From: a virus
Virus record (IMG/VR): IMGVR_UViG_3300032235_000379
Location: 1-25,834 of that record
Strand: one strand, 5' to 3'
DNA length: 25,834 bases
Shown: piece by piece, positions 1-25,483 of the stretch
How the letters are laid out: every line of letters starts with the position of its first letter
Numbering within the stretch: the first letter of the stretch is position 1
Program-made: the position numbers and the translations under genes
Notes under the pieces: generated by a model
Told to the model about the DNA's origin: nothing
Databases searched by the model: none
What the model saw: the letters and a program-made list of their open reading frames with translations, nothing else

Positions 1-476
1 CCTGCAGTAGTGCCATTTTGGAATGCGAGCAGTCCCGTGCCGCTGATGTTGGCTATTGCTGCTGCGATACCACTCAGAGCGAACGTCGGATTACCCGACA
101 CCCCATTTCCATCAGTGACTGTAAGTCCAGCACCCGACGTCGATAATGTGCGAGGCGTTACAGCATTACCGGCGGTCTTAGCGATGATCCCAGTACCTGC
201 AGCTTCGAGGCTTCCCGATGCTCCGTTGAGTGTGATCTGCAGCGGATTTAATGCGCCGTTATCAGTGAGACCCAGTCCAGTACCCGTCGATAGGTATCGA
301 CTATTTGGTAGGGTCGGCTCTTGATTTCTGGTGATGAACGTTTGTGTCTGATTGGGTGCAGAAGATATCGCACCCGCCGTCGTGCGCACGGTAACACCAT
401 TCTGGACTACAGGAACTAATTCAGAACCAGTAATGGGACCTGCTGCAGGTAATTGCGTGATCTGTACATTAGCCAT
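1..476 (-). CDS. Tail fibre or appendage protein, N-terminal part (runs off the window)
   Basis: The reading frame begins with ATG at 476 and stays open for 158 codons to the left edge, so the C-terminus is missing. It begins MANVQITQLPAAGPITGSE and continues with VPVVQNGVTVRTTAGAI, a start I recognise from many phage tail fibre and collar-type proteins, where it forms the virion-attachment end. The rest is Gly, Thr, Ser and Asn rich with repeated pieces of the type STGTGLGLTDNG and STSGAGLTVTDGNG, as expected for a beta-rich fibre shaft. The start codon shares one base with the stop of the upstream gene (TAATG), so translation is probably coupled. Role in host binding is inferred from family and position; the receptor-binding end lies outside the window. 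Confidence 0.8.
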   Translation of the reverse strand, partial: MANVQITQLPAAGPITGSELVPVVQNGVTVRTTAGAISSAPNQTQTFITRNQEPTLPNSRYLSTGTGLGLTDNGALNPLQITLNGASGSLEAAGTGIIAKTAGNAVTPRTLSTSGAGLTVTDGNGVSGNPTFALSGIAAAIANISGTGLLAFQNGTTA

Positions 477-6642: not shown

Positions 6643-7661
6643 GATTGGCCTCTCTGATTGCGATCATATTCCACGAATTTCTGGATCATCTTCTGGCGTG
6701 ACTTGGGATCTTCCCACATGCCAGCTTCTTTAATAGCACGGACACGCTCGGGTGAGAGTCCAAACTCTCCCGGGCGGGCAGTACTCGAAGCTTCACGACC
6801 AGTTCCAGTTTGCACGGATCGAGGCGTCCTTGTTGAGGACCGTCTGGTTTCAGTGCTGCGATTATACCTGTGAGGCAAATACTTTGTCAAGCGGTCGTCG
6901 AGTTCGTCCCAGTATTCGTCGGTCGTCGGATCCCATCCCTCTTCCGCCAGAGACTCGTCGATCTTGGTCGCGACGGCGGAGTCGGTATCCTTCGCTTCGG
7001 GGTCGTACCATTTGTTACGCTCCATCCAAGCTGCCGCCTTACGCTGCATCCGGATATCTGGAGCCTTCGGAACGTTAGCATTTTGCGTGTCCTGCGACGT
7101 GGCCTTCTTGCGCATCCCTTCGAGGGCTTCGATCTGCCGACGAGACTCGTACCACTGCTCCTGAGCCTCGGCCAGAGCCTGACCATTGCGGGCGTCTGCC
7201 GCCTCGGCCATGCGTACCTTGGCATACTGCATGCGCAGATTAGCATCCTCGATAGCCTTCTCCATCCTGGCCATATCGGCACCAGCGGAACGCTTCTCGA
7301 GAGCCGCCAACCGGTCGGCCATCTCAGTATTTTGCCGCTTGAGCGACTCGATCAGATGATTAGACTCTCGGGCCTTCTCGCGGTGGAGCTTCTTCTTAAG
7401 CTTTCGCTCCTCCCGCCGCGCCGCCCGAATCGCCTCCCGCTCGTCTTCAGTGCGACCAGCAGCTTGCGCCTCTTCCTCATCACGCTGTGCATCAGCATCA
7501 TCGTCACTATCATCATGGTCGTCGTTAGAACGAGCACTACCACCGTCAGCCATTTTATCGTCATCAGGAGCAGGTCCATCCTCGAGTCCCTCGATCTTTA
7601 CTATCGCCGAGCCATCTACGTCCTCGGCGATTTGCATCTCCATCTTTTCAGTCTGGTTCAT
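6639..7661 (-). CDS. Scaffolding-like protein, acidic and coiled-coil
   Basis: 340 residues when read from ATG at 7661, preceded by the RBS GAGGCGG. A GTG at 7676 that overlaps the upstream stop is an alternative start. The N-terminal 75 residues are very acidic with an Asp run (DDHDDSDDDADAQRDEEE). Then come long heptad-like helices (about 75-190) rich in Arg, Glu, Lys and Ala, and a C-terminal part with WYDPEAKDTDSAVATKIDES and a basic tail. This is what head scaffolding proteins look like, and it lies between portal and capsid genes, the usual place. It would guide procapsid assembly and then leave the head. The segment DGSAIVKIE near the N-terminus is also present in the portal protein. 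A consensus-like promoter is buried in the coding sequence. Confidence 0.75.
   Translation of the reverse strand: MNQTEKMEMQIAEDVDGSAIVKIEGLEDGPAPDDDKMADGGSARSNDDHDDSDDDADAQRDEEEAQAAGRTEDEREAIRAARREERKLKKKLHREKARESNHLIESLKRQNTEMADRLAALEKRSAGADMARMEKAIEDANLRMQYAKVRMAEAADARNGQALAEAQEQWYESRRQIEALEGMRKKATSQDTQNANVPKAPDIRMQRKAAAWMERNKWYDPEAKDTDSAVATKIDESLAEEGWDPTTDEYWDELDDRLTKYLPHRYNRSTETRRSSTRTPRSVQTGTGREASSTARPGEFGLSPERVRAIKEAGMWEDPKSRQKMIQKFVEYDRNQRGQS
6861..6890 (-). promoter_or_regulatory. Sigma70-type promoter inside the scaffold-like gene
   Basis: On the minus strand TTGACA (6885-6890) and TATAAT (6861-6866) are both perfect and 18 bp apart. It would start a transcript near 6854 that carries the capsid genes but not the portal. 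The hexamers fall within codons for LTKYLPHRYN. Confidence 0.6.
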
Positions 7662-16652: not shown

Positions 16653-16674
16653 TTTGCTTGTCCTCTATCGTCTA

Positions 16675-16950
16675 TTAGATGCTGAAAAAGCCCTTTTGGG
16701 CGAACCATCCGAGGTAGGTACCTGTTCTGGATTTTGCACTCCATGCCGACAGGTTAAATACCACGGTCCAGCGGTTATTCGATGGCAGCTGCACGACCAT
16801 GTAGTCCATGCCGACGTTGGTGTTGTTCCACTGCTCGAATTTCGCAGCCAGTTCCTCTGCCTTGGCCATCGCGGTCTTGTATGCGCCGTATGTCTTGACA
16901 CCGGCTTTGTTCTCGGTCAGGCGCTCTTCAATGCGTTCGATGATGTTCAT
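16675..16950 (-). CDS. Small hypothetical protein, first gene after promoter P1
   Basis: 91 residues: an N-terminal charged helix (about 1-42, MNIIERIEERLTENKAG and AMAKAEELAAKFEQW), then a beta part (YMVVQLPSNNRWTVVFNLSA) ending in GTYLGWFAQKGFFSI. It stands directly behind promoter P1 and a duplicated hairpin leader, with RBS GAGG before ATG at 16950. Such placement suggests strong early expression. Similar small proteins with a final aromatic strand occur in other phages without known role. Confidence 0.7.
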   Translation of the reverse strand: MNIIERIEERLTENKAGVKTYGAYKTAMAKAEELAAKFEQWNNTNVGMDYMVVQLPSNNRWTVVFNLSAWSAKSRTGTYLGWFAQKGFFSI

Positions 16951-16962
16951 GGTATCCTCTAT

Positions 16963-17004
16963 CGTCTATCCGGTGAAATCCACCGTCTATCCGGTGAAAT
17001 CCAC
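16963..17004. repeat. Tandem 21-bp repeat in the P1 leader, each copy a hairpin
   Basis: Two exact 21-bp units lie at 16963-16983 and 16984-17004, followed by three bases of a third. On the minus strand each contains CGGTG-GATTT-CACCG or its equivalent, a 5-bp hairpin; the promoter-proximal one is at 16992-17006. The leader of P1 thus carries two identical hairpins in a row, where the other leaders have one. Confidence 0.85.
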
Positions 17005-17014
17005 CGTGAGACAA

Positions 17015-17043
17015 ATTATACCACCCGTGGCATAGGCTGTCAA
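17015..17043 (-). promoter_or_regulatory. Early promoter P1
   Basis: Minus strand TTGACA (17038-17043), 17 bp, TATAAT (17015-17020), both perfect. Upstream is AAATAC, as in P3 and P4. The -35 box contains the TGA stop of the upstream small membrane protein gene. It drives the genes from 16950 leftward. Confidence 0.9.
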
Positions 17044-17159
17044 GTATTTTTCGAATGCCAGCGCCAGAAGACCGCAAGCATTAATAAGATGATAACGCCG
17101 GTCACGATCAGGCCTCCGGCCAAGGCCAAGGTGAGCACGGTAGTCAGATGCACGCTCAT
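17040..17159 (-). CDS. Very small single-span membrane protein
   Basis: 39 residues: MSVHLTTVLTLALAGGLIVT followed by GVIILLMLAVFWRWHSKNT. About residues 5-31 form one hydrophobic segment and the end is short and positive, so an outside-N, inside-C topology is likely. Its ATG at 17159 overlaps the stop of the upstream gene (ATGA) and a GAGAGG RBS lies seven bases upstream, which makes it credible despite its size. Its stop lies inside the -35 box of P1. It could act on the host membrane, for instance in superinfection exclusion or as a holin-like peptide, but nothing proves this. Confidence 0.65.
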   Translation of the reverse strand: MSVHLTTVLTLALAGGLIVTGVIILLMLAVFWRWHSKNT

Positions 17160-17368
17160 GCGTCCTCTCGAGTCTTCCGGGCGCGTCGAGGCTTGGCTGC
17201 GGCTTCCACATCGACCGGCGCATCTGCAGCCTCGGAGGTACCTTCCGTGGCCTCGGGGACGGCGTCCTGCACTATTGGCTTGTTCGCGTTCGAGCACTGG
17301 CCGGGCCAGCGGCAGGTCGTGGTACAGAGGTTCTTCGGATTGTACTGGGCAGCTTTGCAATTTTGCAT
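17156..17368 (-). CDS. Small Cys-rich protein with basic tail
   Basis: 70 residues from ATG at 17368 with the RBS AGGAG. The N-terminal 25 residues contain four cysteines (C4, C15, C19, C25; CKAAQYNPKNLCTTTC then RWPGQC), possibly a small zinc knuckle or disulfide fold. A middle part is Ala, Glu and Asp rich and probably disordered, and the C-terminus is strongly basic (KPRRARKTRED). The family is unknown. A basic tail with a metal site would fit nucleic acid binding, which is inference. Confidence 0.65.
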   Translation of the reverse strand: MQNCKAAQYNPKNLCTTTCRWPGQCSNANKPIVQDAVPEATEGTSEAADAPVDVEAAAKPRRARKTREDA

Positions 17369-17378
17369 GTAGATTCTC

Positions 17379-17636
17379 CTATTGACGTTGGGCGGGGATT
17401 CGCTCGAGGATCGCGGCGGCAATACGGGTCAGATCCATTTCGTCGGCCCACTCGGACACCATCCGGGCGCACGCTTCACGCTCCATAACCACCGCCGTCT
17501 TGGACGCTTCGATCGCCATCGCCATGATTTCGGCTTTGGCGATCACCAGCGCCTCGTCGAATTCCTTCTGCGTAAATAGTGTGGACTGGGTACCCTTGGC
17601 GAGGAACGCTTTTTGGAAGTCCGACATTTCGCTCAT
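17379..17636 (-). CDS. Small helical phage protein
   Basis: 85 residues, nearly all helical. The part ASKTAVVMEREACARMVSEW resembles the common phage motif of the type 'a...EReaCA...' with one conserved Cys, found in many small early proteins of unknown role. The ATG at 17636 overlaps the stop of the winged-helix gene and has an AGGAG site nine bases upstream. Function unknown. Confidence 0.7.
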   Translation of the reverse strand: MSEMSDFQKAFLAKGTQSTLFTQKEFDEALVIAKAEIMAMAIEASKTAVVMEREACARMVSEWADEMDLTRIAAAILERIPAQRQ

Positions 17637-18079
17637 CCGAATATCTCCTGTAGTCTTGCGTAGATCCTGCGAGCCTCGCCGATCGGCAGCGCATCGACGT
17701 CAATCTGGCCGAGGATGGGTACCGGCGCGGGTTTAGGCTCCTCGTATTTTACCACAGCGACCGGTGCGGGATCGATTTTGACGTTTGCTACCGATTTAGG
17801 TAGCGGCAGCAGCTCGTACTCGGACAGGGCGACCGCATACTCGAGCAGCGATTTACGGCCAGACCCCCGATAAGGGCGGTGCAGGACTGGTTTCGACTTG
17901 ATCATACCGCGCGTAGTCATGTCGCGCAGTTCCGTCTGGATCCACTCGACTCGCTCATTCAGCGCGGTCGCGATTTCGCGTGACGTCTTGTTCGGATGGT
18001 CGCGCAGCCAGTTGAAGATCCGGCGCTTGATCGGTACTTTGATGCCTACGTCATTCAATGCTTTTTTGATGATGTTCAT
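17633..18079 (-). CDS. Winged-helix DNA-binding protein, putative regulator
   Basis: 148 residues. About residues 15-62 read as a winged helix-turn-helix: RRIFNWLRDHPNKTSREIAT, ALNERVEWIQTELRDMTTRG, MIKSKP, with a wing in HRPYRGSGRKSLLEYAV. The middle is Pro, Val and Lys rich (EPKPAPVPILG) and the C-terminal helix ALPIGEARRIYARLQEIFG may serve contacts. This makes it the best candidate in the window for a transcriptional regulator, for instance of the repeated promoters. It has a good GAGAGG RBS and overlaps genes on both sides by four bases. The regulatory target is unknown. Confidence 0.75.
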   Translation of the reverse strand: MNIIKKALNDVGIKVPIKRRIFNWLRDHPNKTSREIATALNERVEWIQTELRDMTTRGMIKSKPVLHRPYRGSGRKSLLEYAVALSEYELLPLPKSVANVKIDPAPVAVVKYEEPKPAPVPILGQIDVDALPIGEARRIYARLQEIFG

Positions 18080-18327
18080 GCATTCCTCTCTCTAAGTTTC
18101 GCTTGCAGCAGGTCGGCGAATTCGCTCGGCTTCTTAGTCACACTCCACAGGGCTTTTACCTCTGCTGTGGTCAGATCCTTCCATTCATCTTTAAACCGTG
18201 GCGCTTGGTAGCTACACTTAGGGCAGATGTACCATTGTTGGTGTTCGGTGTTGGCTTTTATCCACTTTTCTATGGTCGATTCCATTTCTGAAATGTTCCC
18301 TTGCGGGTAAATGTGGTCATCGGTCAT
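18076..18327 (-). CDS. Small hypothetical protein with one CxxC
   Basis: 83 residues from ATG at 18327, which overlaps the upstream stop (ATGA). It has a helix EMESTIEKWIKANTEHQQWY, then YICPKCSYQAPRFKDEW with a single CxxC (half of a ribbon), and a helical end (PSEFADLLQAKLRER). Metal binding would require dimer formation or other ligands. No family recognised. It belongs to the small-gene chain. Confidence 0.65.
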   Translation of the reverse strand: MTDDHIYPQGNISEMESTIEKWIKANTEHQQWYICPKCSYQAPRFKDEWKDLTTAEVKALWSVTKKPSEFADLLQAKLRERNA

Positions 18328-18518
18328 TTTATTCGATCGTAGTAGATGTATGGGCCTTTGGCGGCTGACTTGTAGATGCTCTCGCTCTTGCGATCGAGGC
18401 AGCACTTGCAGATCCATCGCCGACTCTTGGTGGTCTCTCGAGTCACGCCGCCTTCGATCAGACGCACCGCCTGACACGACGTGCAGAATCTCATTTTTTC
18501 CGGGTCAGAAAGGCCCAT
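18324..18518 (-). CDS. Small zinc-finger protein
   Basis: 64 residues. The core is FCTSCQAVRLIEGGVTRE and RRWICKCCLDRKSESIYK, giving a CxxC pair and a CxCC group about 22 residues later, as in small treble-clef or HNH-like zinc fingers without the catalytic His. The start at 18518 has a very good RBS (AGGAG, eight bases). It may bind DNA or RNA. A later Met (residue 9) is an unlikely start. Function unknown. Confidence 0.7.
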   Translation of the reverse strand: MGLSDPEKMRFCTSCQAVRLIEGGVTRETTKSRRWICKCCLDRKSESIYKSAAKGPYIYYDRIK

Positions 18519-18577
18519 AGGTACACTCCTGTATGTATCACTCCGACTGCATAGGTCAGGATTTCGTATTTATTCAT
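18491..18577 (-). CDS. Tiny putative membrane peptide
   Basis: 28 residues: MNKYEILTYAVGVIHTGVYL then WAFLTRKK. It is one hydrophobic segment with a basic end. It overlaps the 56-residue gene by 8 bases and the zinc-finger gene by 28. The ribosome site is poor (GCGAG very near the ATG), so it is only a candidate. Without it, the gap between 18518 and 18570 would be short but empty. Confidence 0.4.
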   Translation of the reverse strand: MNKYEILTYAVGVIHTGVYLWAFLTRKK

Positions 18578-18740
18578 GACTCGCGTTGACCGGCGGCGCA
18601 TTGTTCACCGGGTACATACGCCCGAGGTACTCGATCATTAGAATCATCTGCTCCAGCTCACCGCGCGTGTAGAATCCAGCTTCAAGCGTCACGCCATTCT
18701 CGCTGTAGGCCTTGCAGCCGGGGTTCGGGCTTGGGTTCAT
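18570..18740 (-). CDS. Small hypothetical protein with a strong RBS
   Basis: 56 residues: MNPSPNPGCKAYSENGVTLE followed by a helix ELEQMILMIEYLGRMY and a Pro/Asn-rich end. GAGGAGG lies six bases before the ATG at 18740, among the best Shine-Dalgarno sites here, although the start falls within the last 59 bases of the 69-residue gene in another frame. Either that gene is truncated in function or the two really overlap. No family recognised. Confidence 0.65.
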   Translation of the reverse strand: MNPSPNPGCKAYSENGVTLEAGFYTRGELEQMILMIEYLGRMYPVNNAPPVNASHE

Positions 18741-18891
18741 CTTTCACCTCCTCGCACCAATAGCCATGCCAGTCGATCAGGGCGGGTTGGCCATTTGGGC
18801 ATAGTTGTATATCAGGCTCTGGGTTGTGGCCGTCGTGGAATCCGACGACCCACAGGAACACCAGAAAGCACATAGTGAGTATCAGTCTCAT
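18682..18891 (-). CDS. Small protein with N-terminal signal or membrane segment
   Basis: 69 residues. MRLILTMCFLVFLWVVGFHD is a hydrophobic N-terminus, a signal or a membrane anchor; the remainder is polar with two cysteines (QLCPNGQP, YWCEEV) that could form a disulfide outside the cytoplasm. The ATG at 18891 overlaps the stop of the upstream gene, with only a weak GGAC site. It may be a small periplasmic or inner membrane protein, for instance one protecting the infected cell from other phages or taking part in lysis. These are guesses from topology. Confidence 0.6.
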   Translation of the reverse strand: MRLILTMCFLVFLWVVGFHDGHNPEPDIQLCPNGQPALIDWHGYWCEEVKDEPKPEPRLQGLQREWRDA

Positions 18892-19241
18892 ATGGGTCCG
18901 GCAGCGAGTAATTTACGGATCGCGTTGCGCACTCTCATCGTCGCCACGCCGCCATTCGGAGCCGATTGGTACAGGTCGTGCGGCAGATCATACTTGTCGC
19001 ATAACTCAGGCAAGGAAAGATCGGGAATGTCGATCTCGGGCTTTACTACTCGCTCTATCTTCTCTTTCACTACCTTTGCCTTCCCGGCGACTTCACCGGC
19101 CACCACAGAGACCCCGGACTGGGTCACGTATTCGTGGCGGTGGGTCCGGGCGTATTCGCCTTTAGCCCACCACGGCACGTAGTCTGGGCCGGATATCGGG
19201 GCATGTGCGGCTAGTGCCGCTTGGACCTCAGCCATTCCCAT
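18888..19241 (-). CDS. Hypothetical protein with C-terminal helical domain
   Basis: 117 residues from ATG at 19241, with GGAGG nine bases before. The N-terminal part contains PDYVPWWAKGEYARTHRHEY, the middle is a Lys/Val/Ala-rich helix, and the end (about 70-117) reads DIPDLSLPELCDKYDLPHDL and GVATMRVRNAIRKLL, which has the shape of a small helix-turn-helix or helical bundle. Family and function unknown. The start overlaps the upstream gene by 14 bases. Confidence 0.65.
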   Translation of the reverse strand: MGMAEVQAALAAHAPISGPDYVPWWAKGEYARTHRHEYVTQSGVSVVAGEVAGKAKVVKEKIERVVKPEIDIPDLSLPELCDKYDLPHDLYQSAPNGGVATMRVRNAIRKLLAAGPI

Positions 19242-19419
19242 AGACGATGTCCTCCAGCGCTTGCAGCAGTTCGAGGTCCGGGTACTGCACGGCCACCGGC
19301 GACTGCTCGAACGAGGCTTGCAGACCACGCTCGGTACGCAGCGCCCAGAACTGGACCTTGGTGCCTTTGTAGAGCATCTCGCCCTCAAATTCACCGGTAA
19401 ATATGCGGATCTTATTCAT
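19228..19419 (-). CDS. Small hypothetical protein
   Basis: 63 residues from ATG at 19419 (RBS GGGAG, seven bases). Beta N-terminus MNKIRIFTGEFEGEML and KVQFWALRTERGLQASF, with an amphipathic helix DLELLQALEDIVYG at the end. It overlaps both neighbours by a few bases. I recognise no family. Confidence 0.65.
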   Translation of the reverse strand: MNKIRIFTGEFEGEMLYKGTKVQFWALRTERGLQASFEQSPVAVQYPDLELLQALEDIVYGNG

Positions 19420-19609
19420 CGCCGTACTCCCGGTCGAAATTATCCCACGCGGCGTCTGCACGCGCAATGGCTTTTTGGTCGGCGACCATCCAGTCGATCA
19501 TCTTCGCCGCTTCCTCTCGGGTGTCGTACGTCCACTGGCCCACGAATGTGACCACTGGGTGCTCGATGGTGAATCGTCCGTCGGGTAATTGCTTGACTGT
19601 GTAGTACAT
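19412..19609 (-). CDS. Small hypothetical protein, first gene after promoter P2
   Basis: 65 residues from ATG at 19609 with RBS GAGAGG in the recurrent leader motif. MYYTVKQLPDGRFTIEHP and VVTFVGQWTYDTREEAAKMI form a beta sheet followed by a helix, as in small 'modulator' proteins of phages, ending acidic. An upstream in-frame start at 19684 would lie before the predicted transcript start and is rejected. No function known; position right behind P2 suggests strong early expression. Confidence 0.7.
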   Translation of the reverse strand: MYYTVKQLPDGRFTIEHPVVTFVGQWTYDTREEAAKMIDWMVADQKAIARADAAWDNFDREYGDE

Positions 19610-19655
19610 GATGTCCTCTCTATCGTCTATGGGGTGCCAGAAATCCAGCACCCCG

Positions 19656-19684
19656 ATTATACCACGGGTAAAATACCCTGTCAA
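19656..19684 (-). promoter_or_regulatory. Early promoter P2 with palindromic spacer
   Basis: Minus strand TTGACA (19679-19684), 17 bp, TATAAT (19656-19661). The spacer contains the perfect inverted repeat GGGTA-TTT-TACCC (19666-19678). A 7-bp inverted repeat with arms 19631-19637 and 19648-19654 follows directly, around the start point. The -35 box contains the TGA stop of the upstream gene. Confidence 0.9.
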
Positions 19685-20148
19685 GCCCCCCGGAGGGCCT
19701 TACGCACCAAATTCCCGAGGTTCATGCGCTGCATGCCGAGATTCAGGTTCACGTACTTGGCGCGGAGTGTCTTCTCGTCGGTCTGCAAGGTCTTGGCCGC
19801 AAAGGCATAAGCCTGATCGAGTGTCATGCCACGCATCTTCGATGCCACCTCGTCGCCGCAGTCCAGCGCACGCTTGACGGTACCGTCCTCGAGTTGCACC
19901 TTGGACGCGCCGTAGTGCAGCAGGTAGATCGAGTCCACCTTGCCATTCTTGCGGGTGTTGATGTCGATCGGCTTCTTCTCGCGTGCCGCCTTAGGTGGTG
20001 CTTTCGTCGCGCGGGATACTTCCTTCACGCTCGAGATTTCGGAATTTCGCACTTTTTTCTGCCCTCCATGGAGCTTGATGGTTGACCACCCACCGTTGAT
20101 CATCAGCACTTCGACTTGTTCGCCGGATTTGTAGGTTGCGATTCTCAT
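19681..20148 (-). CDS. Basic hypothetical protein, first gene after promoter P3
   Basis: 155 residues. The N-terminal 35 residues look like a small beta barrel (MRIATYKSGEQVEVLMINGG, then WSTIKLHGGQKKVRNSEI), reminiscent of SH3- or KOW-like nucleic acid binding modules, but this is only a resemblance. A basic linker (KAPPKAAREKKP) leads to a helical C-terminal half with LDQAYAFAAKTLQTDEKTLR and NLGNLVRKALRGA. It may bind DNA or RNA. The RBS lies in the recurrent leader (GAGGATAGAG). The stop codon lies in the -35 box of P2. Confidence 0.7.
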   Translation of the reverse strand: MRIATYKSGEQVEVLMINGGWSTIKLHGGQKKVRNSEISSVKEVSRATKAPPKAAREKKPIDINTRKNGKVDSIYLLHYGASKVQLEDGTVKRALDCGDEVASKMRGMTLDQAYAFAAKTLQTDEKTLRAKYVNLNLGMQRMNLGNLVRKALRGA

Positions 20149-20193
20149 TTTCTCTATCCTCTATTCTATAACGGCAAAATTACCGTAAAATGA

Positions 20194-20223
20194 ATTATAC
20201 TACGGGTGTGATACCCTTGTCAA
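20194..20223 (-). promoter_or_regulatory. Early promoter P3
   Basis: Minus strand TTGACA (20218-20223), 18 bp, TATAAT (20194-20199). It lies wholly within or at the 3' end of the upstream gene; the TAA stop of that gene is part of the -10 box. A 16-base near-palindrome ACGGTAATTTTGCCGT (20171-20186) follows as the leader hairpin. Confidence 0.9.
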
Positions 20224-20449
20224 GTATTTTCGTGTTTTGCGTGGTCATCGGGTCGAAGTTGAACGCGCAGAGTTCCCCCAGACGGCTGGCCGACCCCTCG
20301 CCGAACCACTCGTCGTACAGCTTCTCGACCATGGCCAGAGACATCGAGCCAAAATCCGGCAGTTCGACGTCCGGGGACAGATCTTCGGCTTCCATCTCGA
20401 GGATCTTCTTCTCCATCCAGACGCGGCGCATTTTACGTGACATTCCCAT
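20195..20449 (-). CDS. Small charged hypothetical protein
   Basis: 84 residues from ATG at 20449 with RBS GGAGG; a second ATG six bases on is also possible. N-terminal basic helix (MSRKMRRVWMEKKILEME), then acidic DLSPDVELPDFGSMSLAMVE and a helix VEKLYDEWFGEG. The last eleven codons double as promoter P3. A longer form from 20518 is rejected because it lacks an RBS and would overlap the upstream gene. Function unknown. Confidence 0.65.
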   Translation of the reverse strand: MGMSRKMRRVWMEKKILEMEAEDLSPDVELPDFGSMSLAMVEKLYDEWFGEGSASRLGELCAFNFDPMTTQNTKILDKGITPVV

Positions 20450-20466
20450 ACTACCTCCTCTATCGA

Positions 20467-20706
20467 CTATTGTAAAAAGAAAATGAACATCATCAGGATC
20501 GCGACCACCATGATCCACTCGCCGTGTGCGTTCCAGAAATCTTCGCCGTGACGGTTAGATCCCAGCAGCATCTGCTGCACCTGCATCTCCTCGTCGGTCA
20601 GCGGCACCGCCGGTGGGATGTACCGGCATCCGATCTTGACCTTGCCGGTGTCGTACGGAACCACCTCCGGGCGGTTCGTGGTGAATGTACCTTCGATATT
20701 TTCCAT
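20467..20706 (-). CDS. Small tail-anchored membrane protein
   Basis: 79 residues: a polar N-terminal domain (about 1-62) with IGCRYIPPAVPLTDEEMQVQ, then a single C-terminal hydrophobic segment WIMVVAILMMFIFFLQ that ends the protein. This is a tail-anchor topology with the body in the cytoplasm. The start shares a base with the upstream stop (TAATG) and GGAGC lies upstream. It might act at the host membrane (replication anchoring, exclusion, or lysis), without proof. Confidence 0.7.
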   Translation of the reverse strand: MENIEGTFTTNRPEVVPYDTGKVKIGCRYIPPAVPLTDEEMQVQQMLLGSNRHGEDFWNAHGEWIMVVAILMMFIFFLQ

Positions 20707-20990
20707 TATGCAAGCTCCATCGTCTTGATGTTCATCTGCTCCGAGGCCTTCATGAATTCGGGCAGCAGCTTCGGACCGATGTGTGCGCGGACCTTCTCGG
20801 TGTCCAAGATCGACTTCGTCGTGAATGTGATCTCGACCGCGCAGTTCTTCGATGAATAGGTCGCGGCACCACCATCGCGGAAGGCGTCCTTCAGCTCCTT
20901 CTCACGGGCAGCGAGTGCACGCAGCTTCTCGCGAATCGTGACCAGTTCATCGACCATGTCTTCAGTGATGACTACTTTCGACTTTGCCAT
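20706..20990 (-). CDS. Small helical protein, first gene after promoter P4
   Basis: 94 residues. A long charged N-terminal helix (DELVTIREKLRALAAREKEL) is followed by SKNCAVEITFTTKSILDTEK and a helical end KLLPEFMKASEQMNIKTMEL. This layout, coiled helix, beta hairpin and helix, is seen in many small phage proteins near replication genes. I cannot assign a function. The RBS AGAGGG is in the recurrent leader, and P4 is about 45 bp upstream. Confidence 0.7.
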   Translation of the reverse strand: MAKSKVVITEDMVDELVTIREKLRALAAREKELKDAFRDGGAATYSSKNCAVEITFTTKSILDTEKVRAHIGPKLLPEFMKASEQMNIKTMELA

Positions 20991-21033
20991 TTTACCCTCT
21001 ATTCTCTATATCCGGGAAGTCCCCGTAAGACCA

Positions 21034-21062
21034 ATTATATCACCGGTACGATAGTCTGTCAA
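21034..21062 (-). promoter_or_regulatory. Early promoter P4
   Basis: Minus strand TTGACA (21057-21062), 17 bp, TATAAT (21034-21039). The leader hairpin CGGGGACTTCCCG lies at 21013-21025. It starts four bases after the stop of the DUF6378-like gene. Confidence 0.9.
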
Positions 21063-21066
21063 GTAT

Positions 21067-21438
21067 TTACCACGAATCCCGGTCAGGTGTTGTCGAGCTG
21101 CTAACACTCGACCGTCCGAGATCCTCGACCGATATCTCCACCTCCTCGAACGCCGCCCGGATTTCGCGGGACACCTCGTCCTGCTTCAGGCGATCGACCA
21201 CCAACTGGGCGTACCCGATTATGTCTACCCACGAATCCATATATTTGGGGTCACCATTGAGAATCCGAGCGATTTTGTGCTGGATCATCTCGAGCGATTC
21301 TTGCATGTACGGATATAACTCGGGCCACGACCGGCCTTTGTGCATCACCTTCTTAAAATGCACCGATAATTCGGCGTGGTAGCGAAAATCGCCGTACTTT
21401 TCTGCACGGTCACTTAGCGTCTTTTTGATGTCCGTCAT
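21067..21438 (-). CDS. DUF6378-like phage protein
   Basis: 123 residues. The core TLSDRAEKYGDFRYHAELSV, then ESLEMIQHKIARILNGDPKY and DSWVDIIGYAQLVVDRL, is the pattern of a helical phage family I know as DUF6378 ('R...YG.f......m..K.aRi..G....D...DiagYa.L'). Its fold resembles small all-alpha nucleotide-related proteins, including MazG relatives, but no activity is established to my knowledge. The C-terminal 35 residues are variable and Ser rich. It lies right behind the Z-base genes and overlaps the zinc-ribbon gene by 29 bases, so it may belong to the same nucleotide-handling block. Confidence 0.78.
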   Translation of the reverse strand: MTDIKKTLSDRAEKYGDFRYHAELSVHFKKVMHKGRSWPELYPYMQESLEMIQHKIARILNGDPKYMDSWVDIIGYAQLVVDRLKQDEVSREIRAAFEEVEISVEDLGRSSVSSSTTPDRDSW

Positions 21439-21571
21439 GAGTCTTCTCTCTAGTAGTGAATCGGAATTGGCACTTCGGTGATTTGCACTCGCGCCGACGG
21501 CGTACGGTGTTATCGGCGTTGTTGTAAGTCATCAGTACATGAGTGGGCTTGCCGCATTTAATACATTTCAT
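21410..21571 (-). CDS. NrdR-like zinc-ribbon mini-protein
   Basis: 53 residues: MKCIKCGKPTHVLMTYNNAD, then NTVRRRRECKSPKCQFRFTT and a polar end. Cys3, Cys6, Cys29 and Cys34 form a zinc ribbon. The VRRRRxC...RFTT stretch is that of the N-terminal DNA-binding ribbon of NrdR, the repressor of ribonucleotide reductase genes. The second cysteine pair is CxxxxC instead of the usual CxxC, and the ATP-cone domain of NrdR is absent. The ATG at 21571 shares four bases with the datZ stop (ATGA). A role in reading NrdR boxes or in dNTP control is attractive but inferred; short ribbons of this kind also occur in other phages. Confidence 0.75.
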   Translation of the reverse strand: MKCIKCGKPTHVLMTYNNADNTVRRRRECKSPKCQFRFTTREKTHDGHQKDAK

Positions 21572-22104: not shown

Positions 22105-22595
22105 ACATGCCTCATGATTCGCGTGTTCGGATCCACTCGCCATGTTCGCTGCTCGTTGATGTCCATCTTGTCATTCACCGCTTTCTGTATGTCGATGTCA
22201 TTCATGCGTGCGACATCCAGCAGCAGGATCATAATGTCCCCGAATTCAGGAGCACTCTTAGGGTCGCGTGCGTACTCTCCAAGCTCCTCATATAATTTAA
22301 GCAGGATATCGGCAGTAGTCCGATTGGGAAAGTTCTGATCAGCCCAATCGACGATACGATCCTGCAATTGCTTGATGTCGGCACCAACTCTTTTATGATA
22401 GGCCGAAACGGCACGTAGTACAAAATCGGCATTGATATCACACGATCCGGTGACACCCTTATAGAGGTCACGCGTCTCGAAATCTGCAACCGGTAGCCCG
22501 TTGGCGTCCAAGAGTAGCGCGGGATTGCCTTCACTCTTCCTCCACGGTAGTGGGTTCATCTCGTCGGTATAACCGAGCGCTTCAAAAATCGGCAT
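22101..22595 (-). CDS. mazZ: MazZ-like MazG-fold dGTP pyrophosphohydrolase with N-terminal extra domain
   Basis: 164 residues from ATG at 22595, chosen because AGGGAGA lies just upstream; the open frame goes on to 22652 without RBS. The C-terminal half is a MazG-type helical domain: LYEELGEYAR (Glu103, Glu104, Glu107), EFGDIMILL (Glu117, Asp120), and KMDINEQRTW with Lys143, Asn147 and Arg150, the usual metal and substrate sites. The N-terminal 75 residues (NPLPWRKSEGNPALLLDANG, NADFVLRAVSAYHK) match a separate phage domain of unknown role. In Z phages MazZ converts dGTP to dGMP, the PurZ substrate. It overlaps purZ by 14 bases. Confidence 0.83.
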   Translation of the reverse strand: MPIFEALGYTDEMNPLPWRKSEGNPALLLDANGLPVADFETRDLYKGVTGSCDINADFVLRAVSAYHKRVGADIKQLQDRIVDWADQNFPNRTTADILLKLYEELGEYARDPKSAPEFGDIMILLLDVARMNDIDIQKAVNDKMDINEQRTWRVDPNTRIMRHV

Positions 22596-23604
22596 ATTCA
22601 ATCTCCCTAATGTCTGCATCATCCGGCCCGAAGCACAGGTAATCTGGTCCAAAGTTCGATAAATTCATCTGACGGATGATGTTGGTCAGCGTATCCTCGC
22701 CACAGTAATCCGCGAATGTGAGTACGACTTTCGTCGAGAGTCCCGCACAGTGTAGCATCGCGTGCTTGTACTGCGCGTCCGAGAATTCGAAGATGCGACG
22801 CGGCAGCTTGGTCACTGTAGTCAGTTCAGGCTCTAGTCCCAGATCGCCCCAAGATATCTCTTTCTGCCCGGGGTATGCAGGTCCAGACGTACCATCACGA
22901 TTATTCACTCGGATCGGGAACGTGCGTACGACCATCCACACCGTGATCGCTGCCGCCCATGTGAACGGTAATCCGCAATCCGCCGCGATCTGCCACGGTG
23001 TTACGTCACGCGATGTACAATATGGCCAATCACCATGGTACATTGACAGGCCGAACCCCTGTGCACCTTCGACCAGCAGATGGCGCGACTCGTTCAGGAT
23101 GCGGTCGTATTCGAACCGATCGACCACGAACTGCTCGAGCGGATGACCCTTGAAACCCAACCGGGCGACGGCTTTCGAATCCGGGTCACGCATGATGCGA
23201 TCCACCATCGCAGCCCCCACGCCTTTGGTGGTCGAGCCGATTTTGGTCATGCCGAGTGATTTCTCACGCTCAGAATGCTCATCCGTCACCACCGCTGCGT
23301 GTTCGTGGATCACCAACCGCTGGCCCTCGACCATGTATTTGTCGATCTCTCGTTGCAGGGTACCCGCGTGAATGAGCGATCCCGGGCCGAGCATGACCGT
23401 GTTCACCGACGGGCCAGACACTCCGACCGGCAGCTGCTGCACCATCATCTTCAGACCCCGGGCGCGGTCATTATACGTGTGACCCGCTTGCGTGCCATAT
23501 GAACACACCACGGTGTCGTATGCATACCGTTTCGCGAGCCAGCCGGACACGCCGCCTTTGCCACACGATCCCCACATGCCATCCATAGTCATATCGATTC
23601 TCAT
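22582..23604 (-). CDS. purZ: PurZ, phage adenylosuccinate synthetase-like enzyme for 2-aminoadenine
   Basis: 340 residues, about 90 shorter than bacterial PurA. The first loop is WGSCGKGG: Ser13 stands where PurA has catalytic Asp13. The catalytic His is kept (His42 in QAGHT), and GSTTKGVGAAMVDR (123-136), VEGAQGF (178-184) and YCTSRDVTPWQIAADCG (195-211) follow PurA regions. The guanine-binding TKLD motif reads TKLP (265-268), so GTP specificity is probably lost. PurZ joins aspartate to dGMP; host PurB then gives dZMP, which host kinases turn into dZTP. The RBS GAGGAG fits ATG at 23604. The gene has its own possible promoter. Confidence 0.94.
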   Translation of the reverse strand: MRIDMTMDGMWGSCGKGGVSGWLAKRYAYDTVVCSYGTQAGHTYNDRARGLKMMVQQLPVGVSGPSVNTVMLGPGSLIHAGTLQREIDKYMVEGQRLVIHEHAAVVTDEHSEREKSLGMTKIGSTTKGVGAAMVDRIMRDPDSKAVARLGFKGHPLEQFVVDRFEYDRILNESRHLLVEGAQGFGLSMYHGDWPYCTSRDVTPWQIAADCGLPFTWAAAITVWMVVRTFPIRVNNRDGTSGPAYPGQKEISWGDLGLEPELTTVTKLPRRIFEFSDAQYKHAMLHCAGLSTKVVLTFADYCGEDTLTNIIRQMNLSNFGPDYLCFGPDDADIREIEYADF

Positions 23605-23631: not shown

Positions 23632-23660
23632 ATTATAACATAGTGCTACCGGTAACGTAG
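23632..23660 (-). promoter_or_regulatory. Possible extended -10 promoter of purZ
   Basis: Minus strand TGTTATAAT (-10 box 23632-23637 with upstream TG). The -35 region (23655-23660, CTACGT) is poor. The spacer contains TACCGGTA, similar to the spacer of P4, and the RBS leader TATAGAGGAG resembles those of P1 to P4. The 58-bp gap between polymerase and purZ holds nothing else. Confidence 0.5.
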
Positions 23661-23662
23661 TG

Positions 23663-25483
23663 TCACCCTTTCGCCTCGTACCAGTTACCGCCGATACCCC
23701 AGTCGCAGGTGATCGGCACCCTGAACTTCATCTCGCAATCGACGCCATCGAACGTGGTGTAGATCTTGGCGATCGCGTCGGGATTCGCGTCCTTCTCGAG
23801 CGATATACCGACTTCGTCGTGCACGGTCAGCAGCAATCGTCCCGCATCACGCTCGGTCAGATATCGGTCGATCTCAATGAGCTTCACCTTCATCGCGTCA
23901 GCGCTGGTGCCTTGGTAAATCAGACCCGACGCCTTGTGCGTGAACTGCCCGCCCGGGAACCGGATGTGACGGCCCATCATGGTCATCACGTGACCCCGCT
24001 GCCGAGCGATCGCCGACGCCTTTTGCTGCATATTGCGCATTCCAGGATTCGCCGCGTGGTACTTCTCGAAGATCGCAAGCGCCTCGGGGCCGGGTTTGAC
24101 AAACACTCGCCCATCGTCCATCGTCTCCTCGGCACAAGGTAGCCCGATCTCTTGCGCGAGACGCCCGGCACCCATGTTGAATGCAAGACCCAGATTGATC
24201 GCTTTCGATGACGGCCCACCCGCATACTGCGCGTTCCGGGGAATGCCGGTCATATCGGATACTAGCTGGTGGAAGTCGAGGTTCGGGTTGTCGTGGTACG
24301 CCTTGATGATGGCCGGTACTTGGCCGTAATGGTTAGCCACGCGAAACTCGAACTGCGACCAATCCATTCCAAGCCATCTTGCGCCCTCATCTGGAAGGAA
24401 AATAGGACGTACCAAGGACTTGATCTCTTGGTCACGACTAGGGATCTGCTGGAGCGCTGGATTGGTAACTGAGAGTCTGCCGGTACCAGTTCCGGCCTCC
24501 GCATCATTTTTCGTCTGGTTATAGTTACAGTGAATGACGCCTTCATTGTGATGTCCTAAGATGTGGCCGGATAAGAATGTATCGCGGGTTTTCAGCATTT
24601 TGCGCAGGTCGAGTATCATCTTCGCCGCCGGGTGCTTCATGCGGCGCAGACAGTCTGCGTTTATCGATGCCTTACCCCCATCAGTCTTATCCGCCTTCGT
24701 GCCGTCATTCAAATACCATTCACCATCCGATCCTAACTTCGGCTCGAATAGCTTCGTGATCGATCCGGAAGGGTTCGGGTTGACCTCGAATCCCGCGAGG
24801 GTATTCAAGGCCCGGTGGTCCTGCTCGATGCGAACGGAGAGCCTCTCGACCGCCTCCTCGGCCCGATCGACGTCCACCCGCACGCCGCCCTCTTCCATCC
24901 GAATTATAACAGGCATGAGCCTCCGCTCCAGATCGTGCACCTTGGCGATCTCGGTCATGCGGGGTTCCTGCCACTGGAACAGCTTCATCGTCGCCAGTGC
25001 ATCCTGCTTCGCATATTTTGCCACCATTTCTGCCGGTGCGCGGTGGATATTGGGCATTTGGGCGTTCCGAGTGGCCCTACCACCGAACAACCCGGCCATC
25101 TCCTCGTATATCTCGGTCTCCTTGCGGGTGTTGGCGTACTTGCGAGCCAAGAAGTCGAGTTCATAGGTGGGTTCATGCTCGTTGATCAGCGCCGCCCGGA
25201 TCATGGTGCAGTCGATTCGATCCTCAGGCAGGATGACCCCCGCCTCGCGCAGAAAATGGTAATCGAACTTCAGATTATGTCCGACCCACTTCGTGCGCGG
25301 ATTCGCATCGATCAGGTCATTTAACCAGTCGATAAATCGAGGATCCGTTCGAACATCGAAATACCATGTATCTTCGGTCTCCGTACACAGCGAGACCCCG
25401 AAAATGCGGTCTTTCCACCACTTTAAACCAGTGGTCTCCGTATCGATCACCAACACCTTCGGATTCTCTATGCGCGGATACAT
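23663..25483 (-). CDS. dpoZ: Family A DNA polymerase with 3'-5' exonuclease, DpoZ type
   Basis: 606 residues. The proofreading domain has Exo I VIDTETTG (Asp14, Glu16), Exo II HNLKFDYHF (Asp73) and Exo III YAKQD (Tyr156, Asp160). The polymerase domain has TGTGRLS (330-337), motif A MDWSQFEFR (Asp373, Glu378), motif B SSKAINLGLAFNMG (Lys426), QGTSADAMK (523-531) and motif C VHDE (His554-Glu556). There is no 5'-3' exonuclease domain. In the O helix of motif B, positions matching E. coli Pol I Arg754 and Phe762 appear as Gly422 and Leu430. In phages with PurZ, a polymerase of this kind (DpoZ) prefers dZTP over dATP; the location next to purZ supports that. No RBS is visible; it starts five bases after the upstream stop. 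Confidence 0.9.
   Translation of the reverse strand: MYPRIENPKVLVIDTETTGLKWWKDRIFGVSLCTETEDTWYFDVRTDPRFIDWLNDLIDANPRTKWVGHNLKFDYHFLREAGVILPEDRIDCTMIRAALINEHEPTYELDFLARKYANTRKETEIYEEMAGLFGGRATRNAQMPNIHRAPAEMVAKYAKQDALATMKLFQWQEPRMTEIAKVHDLERRLMPVIIRMEEGGVRVDVDRAEEAVERLSVRIEQDHRALNTLAGFEVNPNPSGSITKLFEPKLGSDGEWYLNDGTKADKTDGGKASINADCLRRMKHPAAKMILDLRKMLKTRDTFLSGHILGHHNEGVIHCNYNQTKNDAEAGTGTGRLSVTNPALQQIPSRDQEIKSLVRPIFLPDEGARWLGMDWSQFEFRVANHYGQVPAIIKAYHDNPNLDFHQLVSDMTGIPRNAQYAGGPSSKAINLGLAFNMGAGRLAQEIGLPCAEETMDDGRVFVKPGPEALAIFEKYHAANPGMRNMQQKASAIARQRGHVMTMMGRHIRFPGGQFTHKASGLIYQGTSADAMKVKLIEIDRYLTERDAGRLLLTVHDEVGISLEKDANPDAIAKIYTTFDGVDCEMKFRVPITCDWGIGGNWYEAKG

Follow-up and report, generated by a model that had tools for sequence, protein, structure and literature searches.

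Four promoters on the minus strand of the window, by which we mean the whole 25.8 kb uncultured virus record IMGVR_UViG_3300032235_000379, belong to a real, conserved control element of three layers. These are a promoter with consensus -35 and -10 boxes, a palindrome that fills much of its spacer and runs into the -10, and, before certain genes, a hairpin in the leader. We note that functions assigned to the layers are putative, as they are read from sequence and its conservation. We give about an even chance to the combined reading in which P1–P4 unite a promoter making every consensus contact (-35, the RTGN extension in three out of four, and -10), an operator in the spacer, and a gene-specific hairpin at the RNA 5′ end. 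They would then be strong promoters of the sigma70 type that drive small early or middle genes in a phage equipped with the genes for a genome in which base Z takes the place of adenine. The promoters and the genes behind them are as follows.

17015–17043, minus strand: P1, exact TTGACA-17-TATAAT; the TGA in its -35 ends an upstream open frame
19656–19684, minus strand: P2, exact TTGACA-17-TATAAT; the TGA in its -35 is the stop codon of the P3 gene
20194–20223, minus strand: P3, exact TTGACA-18-TATAAT; the TAA in its -10 is the stop codon of the gene at 20195–20449
21034–21062, minus strand: P4, exact TTGACA-17-TATAAT with an extended -10
16675–16950, minus strand: P1 gene, 91 aa
19412–19609, minus strand: P2 gene, 65 aa, family 7
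19681–20148, minus strand: P3 gene, 155 aa, family 1 (phrog_8941 in part), with a homologue behind a hairpin promoter of isolated Z-phages
20706–20990, minus strand: P4 gene, 94 aa, family 0, with a homologue in 40 loci

At all four positions TTGACA and TATAAT lie 16–18 bp apart, the sequence pattern of a sigma70-type promoter, exactly where the initial annotation had placed them. Their number is far beyond chance, with five exact TTGACA-16..18-TATAAT sites in the window compared with a mean of 0.003 and a maximum of 1 in 300 dinucleotide shuffles. P1, P2, and P4 also have TG ahead of the -10 (extended -10, RTGN), and P3 has GTAG there. The motif AAATAC, noted earlier for three of the promoters, directly precedes P1, P3, and P4 and is absent from P2. 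Stop codons inside the -35 (P1, P2) or the -10 (P3) mean that the promoters are packed into gene junctions. We rejected the fifth exact site (6861–6890, minus strand), which lies within a conserved gene and lacks the leader. It is likely a coding coincidence, because the frame through it reads LTKYLPHRYN, judged by eye, and is kept in relatives. A further class of sites, AAAGGGTCGGGCAAAG, was likewise set aside by eye as conserved coding sequence.

A palindrome in the promoter spacer

With the window polymerase as query, we found 46 related IMG/VR loci, divided into a near clade (84%–98%) and a far clade (71%–74%). Together with the window, these contain 178 exact promoters, 156 of which have AGAGG in the next 100 nucleotides (nt), and 82 distinct spacers. 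TG precedes the -10 in 167 out of 173 promoters of the loci with a window-clade polymerase. Spacer letters are conserved at three places, T[AG]T at -14 to -12, CAC at -9 to -7, and GTG at -4 to -2, and hold their distance to the -10 in spacers of 17 and 18 bp, the extra base adjoining the -35. With the first four letters of the -10, they form an 18-bp palindrome, TATNNCACNNGTGNNATA. The initial annotation had described similar spacers sharing ACC[CG]GT; a common spacer is indeed present, but what is shared is this longer palindrome. In the far clade, an exact promoter of one locus (L056, ~387–700; G007 20387–20700) runs against the direction of the genes; it adjoins repeats of GTTCCA/TGGAAC that lie upstream of a replication-type gene, and this is perhaps an origin or control region.

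17017–17034, minus strand: operator-like palindrome of P1, TATGCCACGGGTGGTATA, score 21.1
19658–19675, minus strand: operator-like palindrome of P2, TATTTTACCCGTGGTATA, score 18.5
20196–20213, minus strand: operator-like palindrome of P3, TATCACACCCGTAGTATA, score 18.6
21036–21053, minus strand: operator-like palindrome of P4, TATCGTACCGGTGATATA, score 20.3

The symmetry was measured in 75 distinct spacers picked on -35, -10, and leader alone, with the spacer disregarded. Around a center at -6/-5, six out of nine pairs were complementary in 73%–85% of spacers, and mean complementarity was 0.61, compared with 0.41 at the best other center. Built from nothing but the left half and its mirror image, a weight model recovers P1–P4 at scores of 18.5–21.1, where 0.3 sites scoring at least 14 are expected in shuffles. 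We also searched with only the -10 and leader as anchors, which gave 163 distinct sites. A good -35 and the palindrome core occurred together in 100 of these and the core without a good -35 in 13; 14 had a good -35 without the core (several resemble gene ends), and 36 had neither.

The pattern of -35, palindrome, and -10 occurs in 116 stretches of the viral collection. The 114 viral loci read gave 194 matches, 138 of them distinct, and 130 of the 138 were followed by the leader. In the genome collection (257 billion bases) there were only 26 isolated matches, many in Clostridia. The promoter–palindrome module belongs to the phage clade of the window. The suggestion in the initial annotation that the spacer could be an operator is strengthened by the palindrome being kept in both clades at a fixed distance to the -10, with spacers of 17 or 18 bp. 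We interpret the palindrome as most likely an operator to which a protein would bind, and which, when occupied, would keep RNA polymerase off the promoter, much like the operator of a repressed early promoter.

Related sites also occur away from promoters of this type. Upstream of purZ, in the window (23632–23659, minus strand) and in nine loci (L006–L011, L039, L046, L051), there is a core [CT]ACC[GCA]GTA with an extended -10, TATGTTATAAT, and no -35. The core lies 8 bp further from this -10 (23632–23637 in the window) than the palindromes of P1–P4 do from theirs, a position where an activator could work. Locus L055 contains a near-perfect operator palindrome at 521–538 (TACCATACCGGTACTATA, score 15.2) without a promoter of the P1–P4 type.

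23642–23659, minus strand: operator-like site upstream of purZ, TACGTTACCGGTAGCACT, which scores under the cut-off of the window scan

Among the small proteins of the window, family scans recognized one DNA-binding family with conservation across the clade.

21410–21571, minus strand: stand-alone zinc ribbon of NrdR type, 53 aa, which may bind the palindrome

This protein matches PF22811 (NrdR N-terminal domain) at 39.4 bits against a cut-off of 27.2, and homologues occur in 97 of the loci L006–L171 (52 distinct). A profile of 21 zinc ribbons matches an NrdR protein, which we take to be that of E. coli, at E 1.1e-6; this did better than a Foldseek search with the ribbon, which found nothing below 0.001. 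The family has 15 invariant columns and the N-terminal ribbon with RRRR typical of NrdR. No ATP-cone follows, as the 53-aa protein ends shortly past the ribbon and the longest relative listed has 101 aa. The phage ribbons retain the arginines, and T15, Y16, and N18, invariant or nearly so, fit a target other than the NrdR box. A related ribbon was present in 95 new loci; it was of the TTYxN type in 12 and not of this type in 83. The loose operator pattern was present in 9 out of 12 TTYxN-type loci and a weaker variant in an exact promoter in 3 out of 12, while the others gave a single chance match (1 out of 83), without a promoter. We consider the zinc ribbon the best candidate for binding the palindrome, a guess with reasons, and as a candidate regulator it comes with an easily assayed 18-bp target. 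A 148-aa MarR-like winged-helix protein (17633–18079, minus strand; phrog_1687, E 2.6e-6) was rejected as a general regulator because it was found only in the window and L007. Stand-alone NrdR-type ribbons are common in phages, and some (L234 and L245 among others) retain the DSR residues, which in bacterial NrdR read the NrdR boxes.

Hairpins in the leaders of certain genes

16971–17006, minus strand: P1 leader, hairpin unit CGGTGGATTTCACCG twice in tandem (16992–17006 and 16971–16985)
19631–19654, minus strand: P2 inverted repeat, GGGGTGCTGG-ATTT-CTGGCACCCC, starting 2 nt after the -10
20171–20186, minus strand: P3 leader hairpin, ACGGTA-ATTT-TGCCGT, 8 nt after the -10
21013–21025, minus strand: P4 leader hairpin (weak), CGGG-GACTT-CCCG, 9 nt after the -10

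The tandem units of P1 fold together into a single long hairpin (-23.1 kcal/mol, z -5.6), and the P3 hairpin gives a z-score of -2.2. For P2, the z-score is -3.3 for the full stem and +0.75 for the truncated stem. Rfam gave no match over the gathering threshold in the window. A stem-loop beginning about at the start of the RNA had been proposed for all four promoters. This fits P1, P3, and P4, in which the 5′ arm begins 8–9 nt after the -10 and would lie at the 5′ end if transcription starts 7–9 nt after the -10, but not P2, where part of the stem would fall outside its own transcript given a start at the usual distance. The position at about +1 fits protection of the 5′ end, and the hairpin would most likely shield that end from decay, with the common ribosome-binding leader coming next.

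Hairpins were gene-specific rather than general. We sorted 229 distinct leader-bearing sites into 31 groups by downstream protein and counted a hairpin where there was a perfect stem of at least 4 bp with at least three G or C. Hairpins were present in 52 leaders, compared with 19 in shuffled leaders, and most 5′ arms began 8–10 nt after the -10. Of these, 51 were in the 92 sites of families 0, 1, and 7 and the P1 slot, groups that were joined after the hairpins had been seen, and one was in the remaining 137. By group, hairpins occurred in 24 out of 44 sites of family 0 (P4 gene), 14 out of 34 of family 1 (P3 gene), 7 out of 8 of family 7 (P2 gene), and 6 out of 6 of the P1 slot. Leaders in the remaining groups are short, such as AAAGTCTTTTAACCAACCGATAGAGG. 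Most promoters of this type in relatives thus lack the stem, and we abandoned both the hairpin as a part of every promoter and the earlier picture of hairpin and promoter as one module. The shared leader, a ATAGACGATAGAGG-like stretch, is a ribosome-binding leader as had been noted, but it is general rather than specific to these promoters, also standing before genes without one (16656–16675 and 20451–20464).

Pairing kept despite changes of letters had been read as structure under selection. In near-clade rows aligned on the stem, this was clear for P3, with 24 out of 24 cells paired in four distinct rows and three out of six pairs changed on both sides, a score reached by 2 out of 500 shuffles. 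The evidence is thin elsewhere, as one pair was changed on both sides in P2 (seven rows, all paired) and one pair was changed in P4 (four rows, 15 out of 16 cells paired, with a C-A mismatch in L039), and P1 does not vary. Selection on structure is therefore upheld for the P3 slot, weak for P4, and carried by one compensating pair for P2. The P1 slot itself (window 16956–17043; L010 17742; L053 ~15076; L163; L051 16545) has a near-identical promoter and leader in different phages, before unrelated genes (families 12, 13, 16, and 30), as if genes were exchanged behind a fixed control cassette.

Z-genome phages and alternative readings

All three genes of a Z-genome phage, for PurZ, DatZ (dATP hydrolase), and a DpoZ-like polymerase, are encoded in the window.

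22582–23604, minus strand: purZ
23663–25483, minus strand: DpoZ-like DNA polymerase I

The genes run on the minus strand in the order terminase, portal, capsid; small early genes; and dATP triphosphohydrolase, PurZ, and DNA polymerase I. The polymerase is nearest to those of Klebsiella K21lambda1, Salmonella PMBT28, and Acinetobacter SH-Ab 15497 (49%–48%), and PurZ matches the same phages and the like; therefore, the genes of a Z-genome phage are present, and the DNA of the window phage presumably contains base Z in place of adenine. Across the window and loci L012–L050, PurZ is ~43% identical between clades with 73% identical polymerases, yet 72%–73% in L036 and L044, so that some members of the clade may have had their purZ replaced. 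A search for DNA close to the window among named phages, and Pfam on ten small early window proteins, returned none.

The same promoter design recurs in isolated Z-phages. The whole records of 12 PurZ-positive isolates contain 37 exact promoters, all 37 with RTG before the -10.

K21lambda1, PMBT28, PSA28: four exact promoters each
Kokobel2: five exact promoters
SH-Ab 15497, Barton, phage 53, 69E27.1, QH: three exact promoters each
phiVC8, ZP6: two exact promoters each
BUCT555: one exact promoter
S113 (T5-like; control): two exact sites

The whole records of PurZ-positive S-2L and Bm1 contain no exact promoter. The 13 control records, few, chosen by hand, and not each checked for lack of PurZ, had two exact sites, both in S113. 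None was found in lambda, T7, T1, T4, N4, P22, HK97, Caulobacter GB2A, a Desulfofustis phage, MW202545, IntR, or DS1. The TerL-related MW202545 also had no one-mismatch promoter in a 47 kb stretch, and CACNNGTGNTATAAT was absent from its whole record. A set of 83 unrelated viral loci (675 kb) had one exact promoter. The spacer of the Klebsiella–Acinetobacter–Providencia group is mostly CCCCAA[CT]CTATG, not the palindrome, and both CACNNGTGNTATAAT and the zinc ribbon were absent from the same nine records tested.

Many isolated Z-phage promoters have a hairpin at the same place, followed by a leader such as GGAGATATAGAG-ATG. With a P3-family profile, the homologous gene is found downstream of one such promoter in PMBT28 (E 4.7e-22) and, from matches to short pieces, in SH-Ab 15497 (6.9e-6), Kokobel2 (3.4e-5), and K21lambda1 (0.001). 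In Kokobel2, this is the one promoter out of five with a clear hairpin. The hairpin z-scores (PMBT28 -2.7, SH-Ab 15497 -1.7, Kokobel2 -2.8, K21lambda1 -1.0) make the single folds modest; recurrence before homologous genes is the point. Neither the P4 profile nor the zinc-ribbon profile matched well in any of the pieces searched.

Several observations weigh against an operator and a gene-specific hairpin. In the 75 spacers, palindrome pairs show no covariation beyond column composition, and complementarity at the innermost pair is rarer than its columns predict (0.15 versus 0.30). The GTG of the palindrome doubles as the extended -10, which gives half of the symmetry a second reason. Zinc ribbon and operator are confined to one clade, so their co-presence may reflect descent only. 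The P4 hairpin has only 4 bp and folds no better than shuffles (z -0.22), and the hairpin-bearing families, as noted, were grouped in hindsight. The spacer might thus bind no protein, with RTGN acting as an extended -10 and the rest reflecting promoter preference or common descent. This would explain why GTG is conserved at 100%, 100%, and 96% across 56 distinct 17-bp spacers and why isolated Z-phages have ACC.RTGN without a palindrome. However, the conserved TAT (-14 to -12) and C (-9) mirror the right half, the spacer letters hold their distance to the -10 rather than to the -35, and the palindrome outlives loss of the -35; we judge this account unlikely, though a serious contender. An RNA target, in which the P3 product binds the hairpin of its own leader and a few others, appears improbable. 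The model of this protein has an N-terminal small beta barrel of Sm/SH3 type, its closest folds are Hfq-like barrels (weakly, at E 0.05, with nothing below 0.001), and its homologues stand behind hairpin promoters both in the window clade and in four isolated Z-phages that infect other hosts; yet the model has a pTM of only 0.43, stem and loop letters vary, and 20 out of 34 family 1 leaders lack a stem of at least 4 bp. We give still less credit, very little in all, to the inverted repeats acting in DNA, as a second operator or cruciform. The P2 arm does begin upstream of the expected transcription start, but outside P2 the position fits an RNA start, and a protein site would keep its letters and not pairing alone, while P3 changes both sides of three pairs. 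We retain the operator and 5′ hairpin as the preferred reading.

The promoter design of Z-phages hints at a way for host RNA polymerase to read an adenine-free genome. Z puts a C2 amino group at every A. According to a review, N1 and the unsubstituted C2 hydrogen of the -11 A are important for strand opening, and with 2-aminopurine at this position a weak promoter failed to open, whereas one of optimal sequence still did (PMC4496690). A C2 amino group at -11 would, by extension, block opening of weak promoters while sparing optimal ones, and because Z places it at every A, only full-consensus promoters would fire in Z-DNA, with weaker, host-like promoters staying silent. Full-consensus promoters (-35, RTGN, and -10 all perfect) could then be an adaptation to transcribing Z-DNA. 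Regulation, no longer possible through promoter strength, would come from lineage-specific spacer operators, and the +1 hairpin before the P3-type gene would be an ancient part of the same early control. We hold this proposal tentatively, and would sooner doubt it than adopt it, because 2-aminopurine is not Z, the controls are few, and phages of the same lineage are not independent. These may instead be ordinary strong early promoters whose full consensus is unrelated to Z, an account that we place somewhat short of an even chance. The two sites in the T5-like control and the lack of exact sites in PurZ-positive S-2L and Bm1 speak for it; the lack of such sites in lambda, T7, T1, T4, N4, P22, and HK97, and the presence of RTG at 37 out of 37 sites in 12 Z-phages, speak against it. 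The link to Z-DNA is the most valuable lead. We found no paper on promoters of Z-phages in the literature searched. Isolates that infect Salmonella, Klebsiella, Acinetobacter, Providencia, and Vibrio, together with uncultured relatives, supply promoters that are ready parts for expression from Z-DNA and make its reading testable in vitro.

Comparison with known systems

The lambda promoter PL is a near-consensus early promoter with OL1 in its spacer. P1–P4 share this layout, a near-consensus, putatively early promoter with a palindromic, operator-like site between -35 and -10. The window site differs from OL1 in length and core and is present in several copies over several kb, and no CI-like protein was found in the proteins scanned.

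The likeness to NrdR lies in a zinc ribbon with RRRR and, by prediction, one palindrome half per ribbon, and an NrdR box overlaps the -10 in P. aeruginosa (PMC9110341, PMC12051234, PMC4409342). The phage ribbon differs in lacking the ATP-cone and in having TYxN in place of the specificity residues D15/R17. Instead of a box pair (two 16-bp palindromes 15–16 bp apart), each promoter has a single 18-bp palindrome with CAC near the center, and these are not at ribonucleotide reductase genes.

With starts 7–9 nt after the -10, the leader hairpins of P1, P3, and P4 would resemble the stabilizing 5′ stem-loops of ompA, papA, and aprE (works cited in PMC3997798), which have a stem at the RNA 5′ end or within ~1–2 nt of it, followed by a single-stranded leader with the ribosome-binding site. 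The phage stems differ from these in recurring at several promoters whose spacers each carry an operator-like site, and their effect on stability is putative. Finally, many copies of one site across a phage genome recall the stoperators of cluster A mycobacteriophages (PMC9283540), from which the window sites differ in being palindromic and in lying inside promoters.

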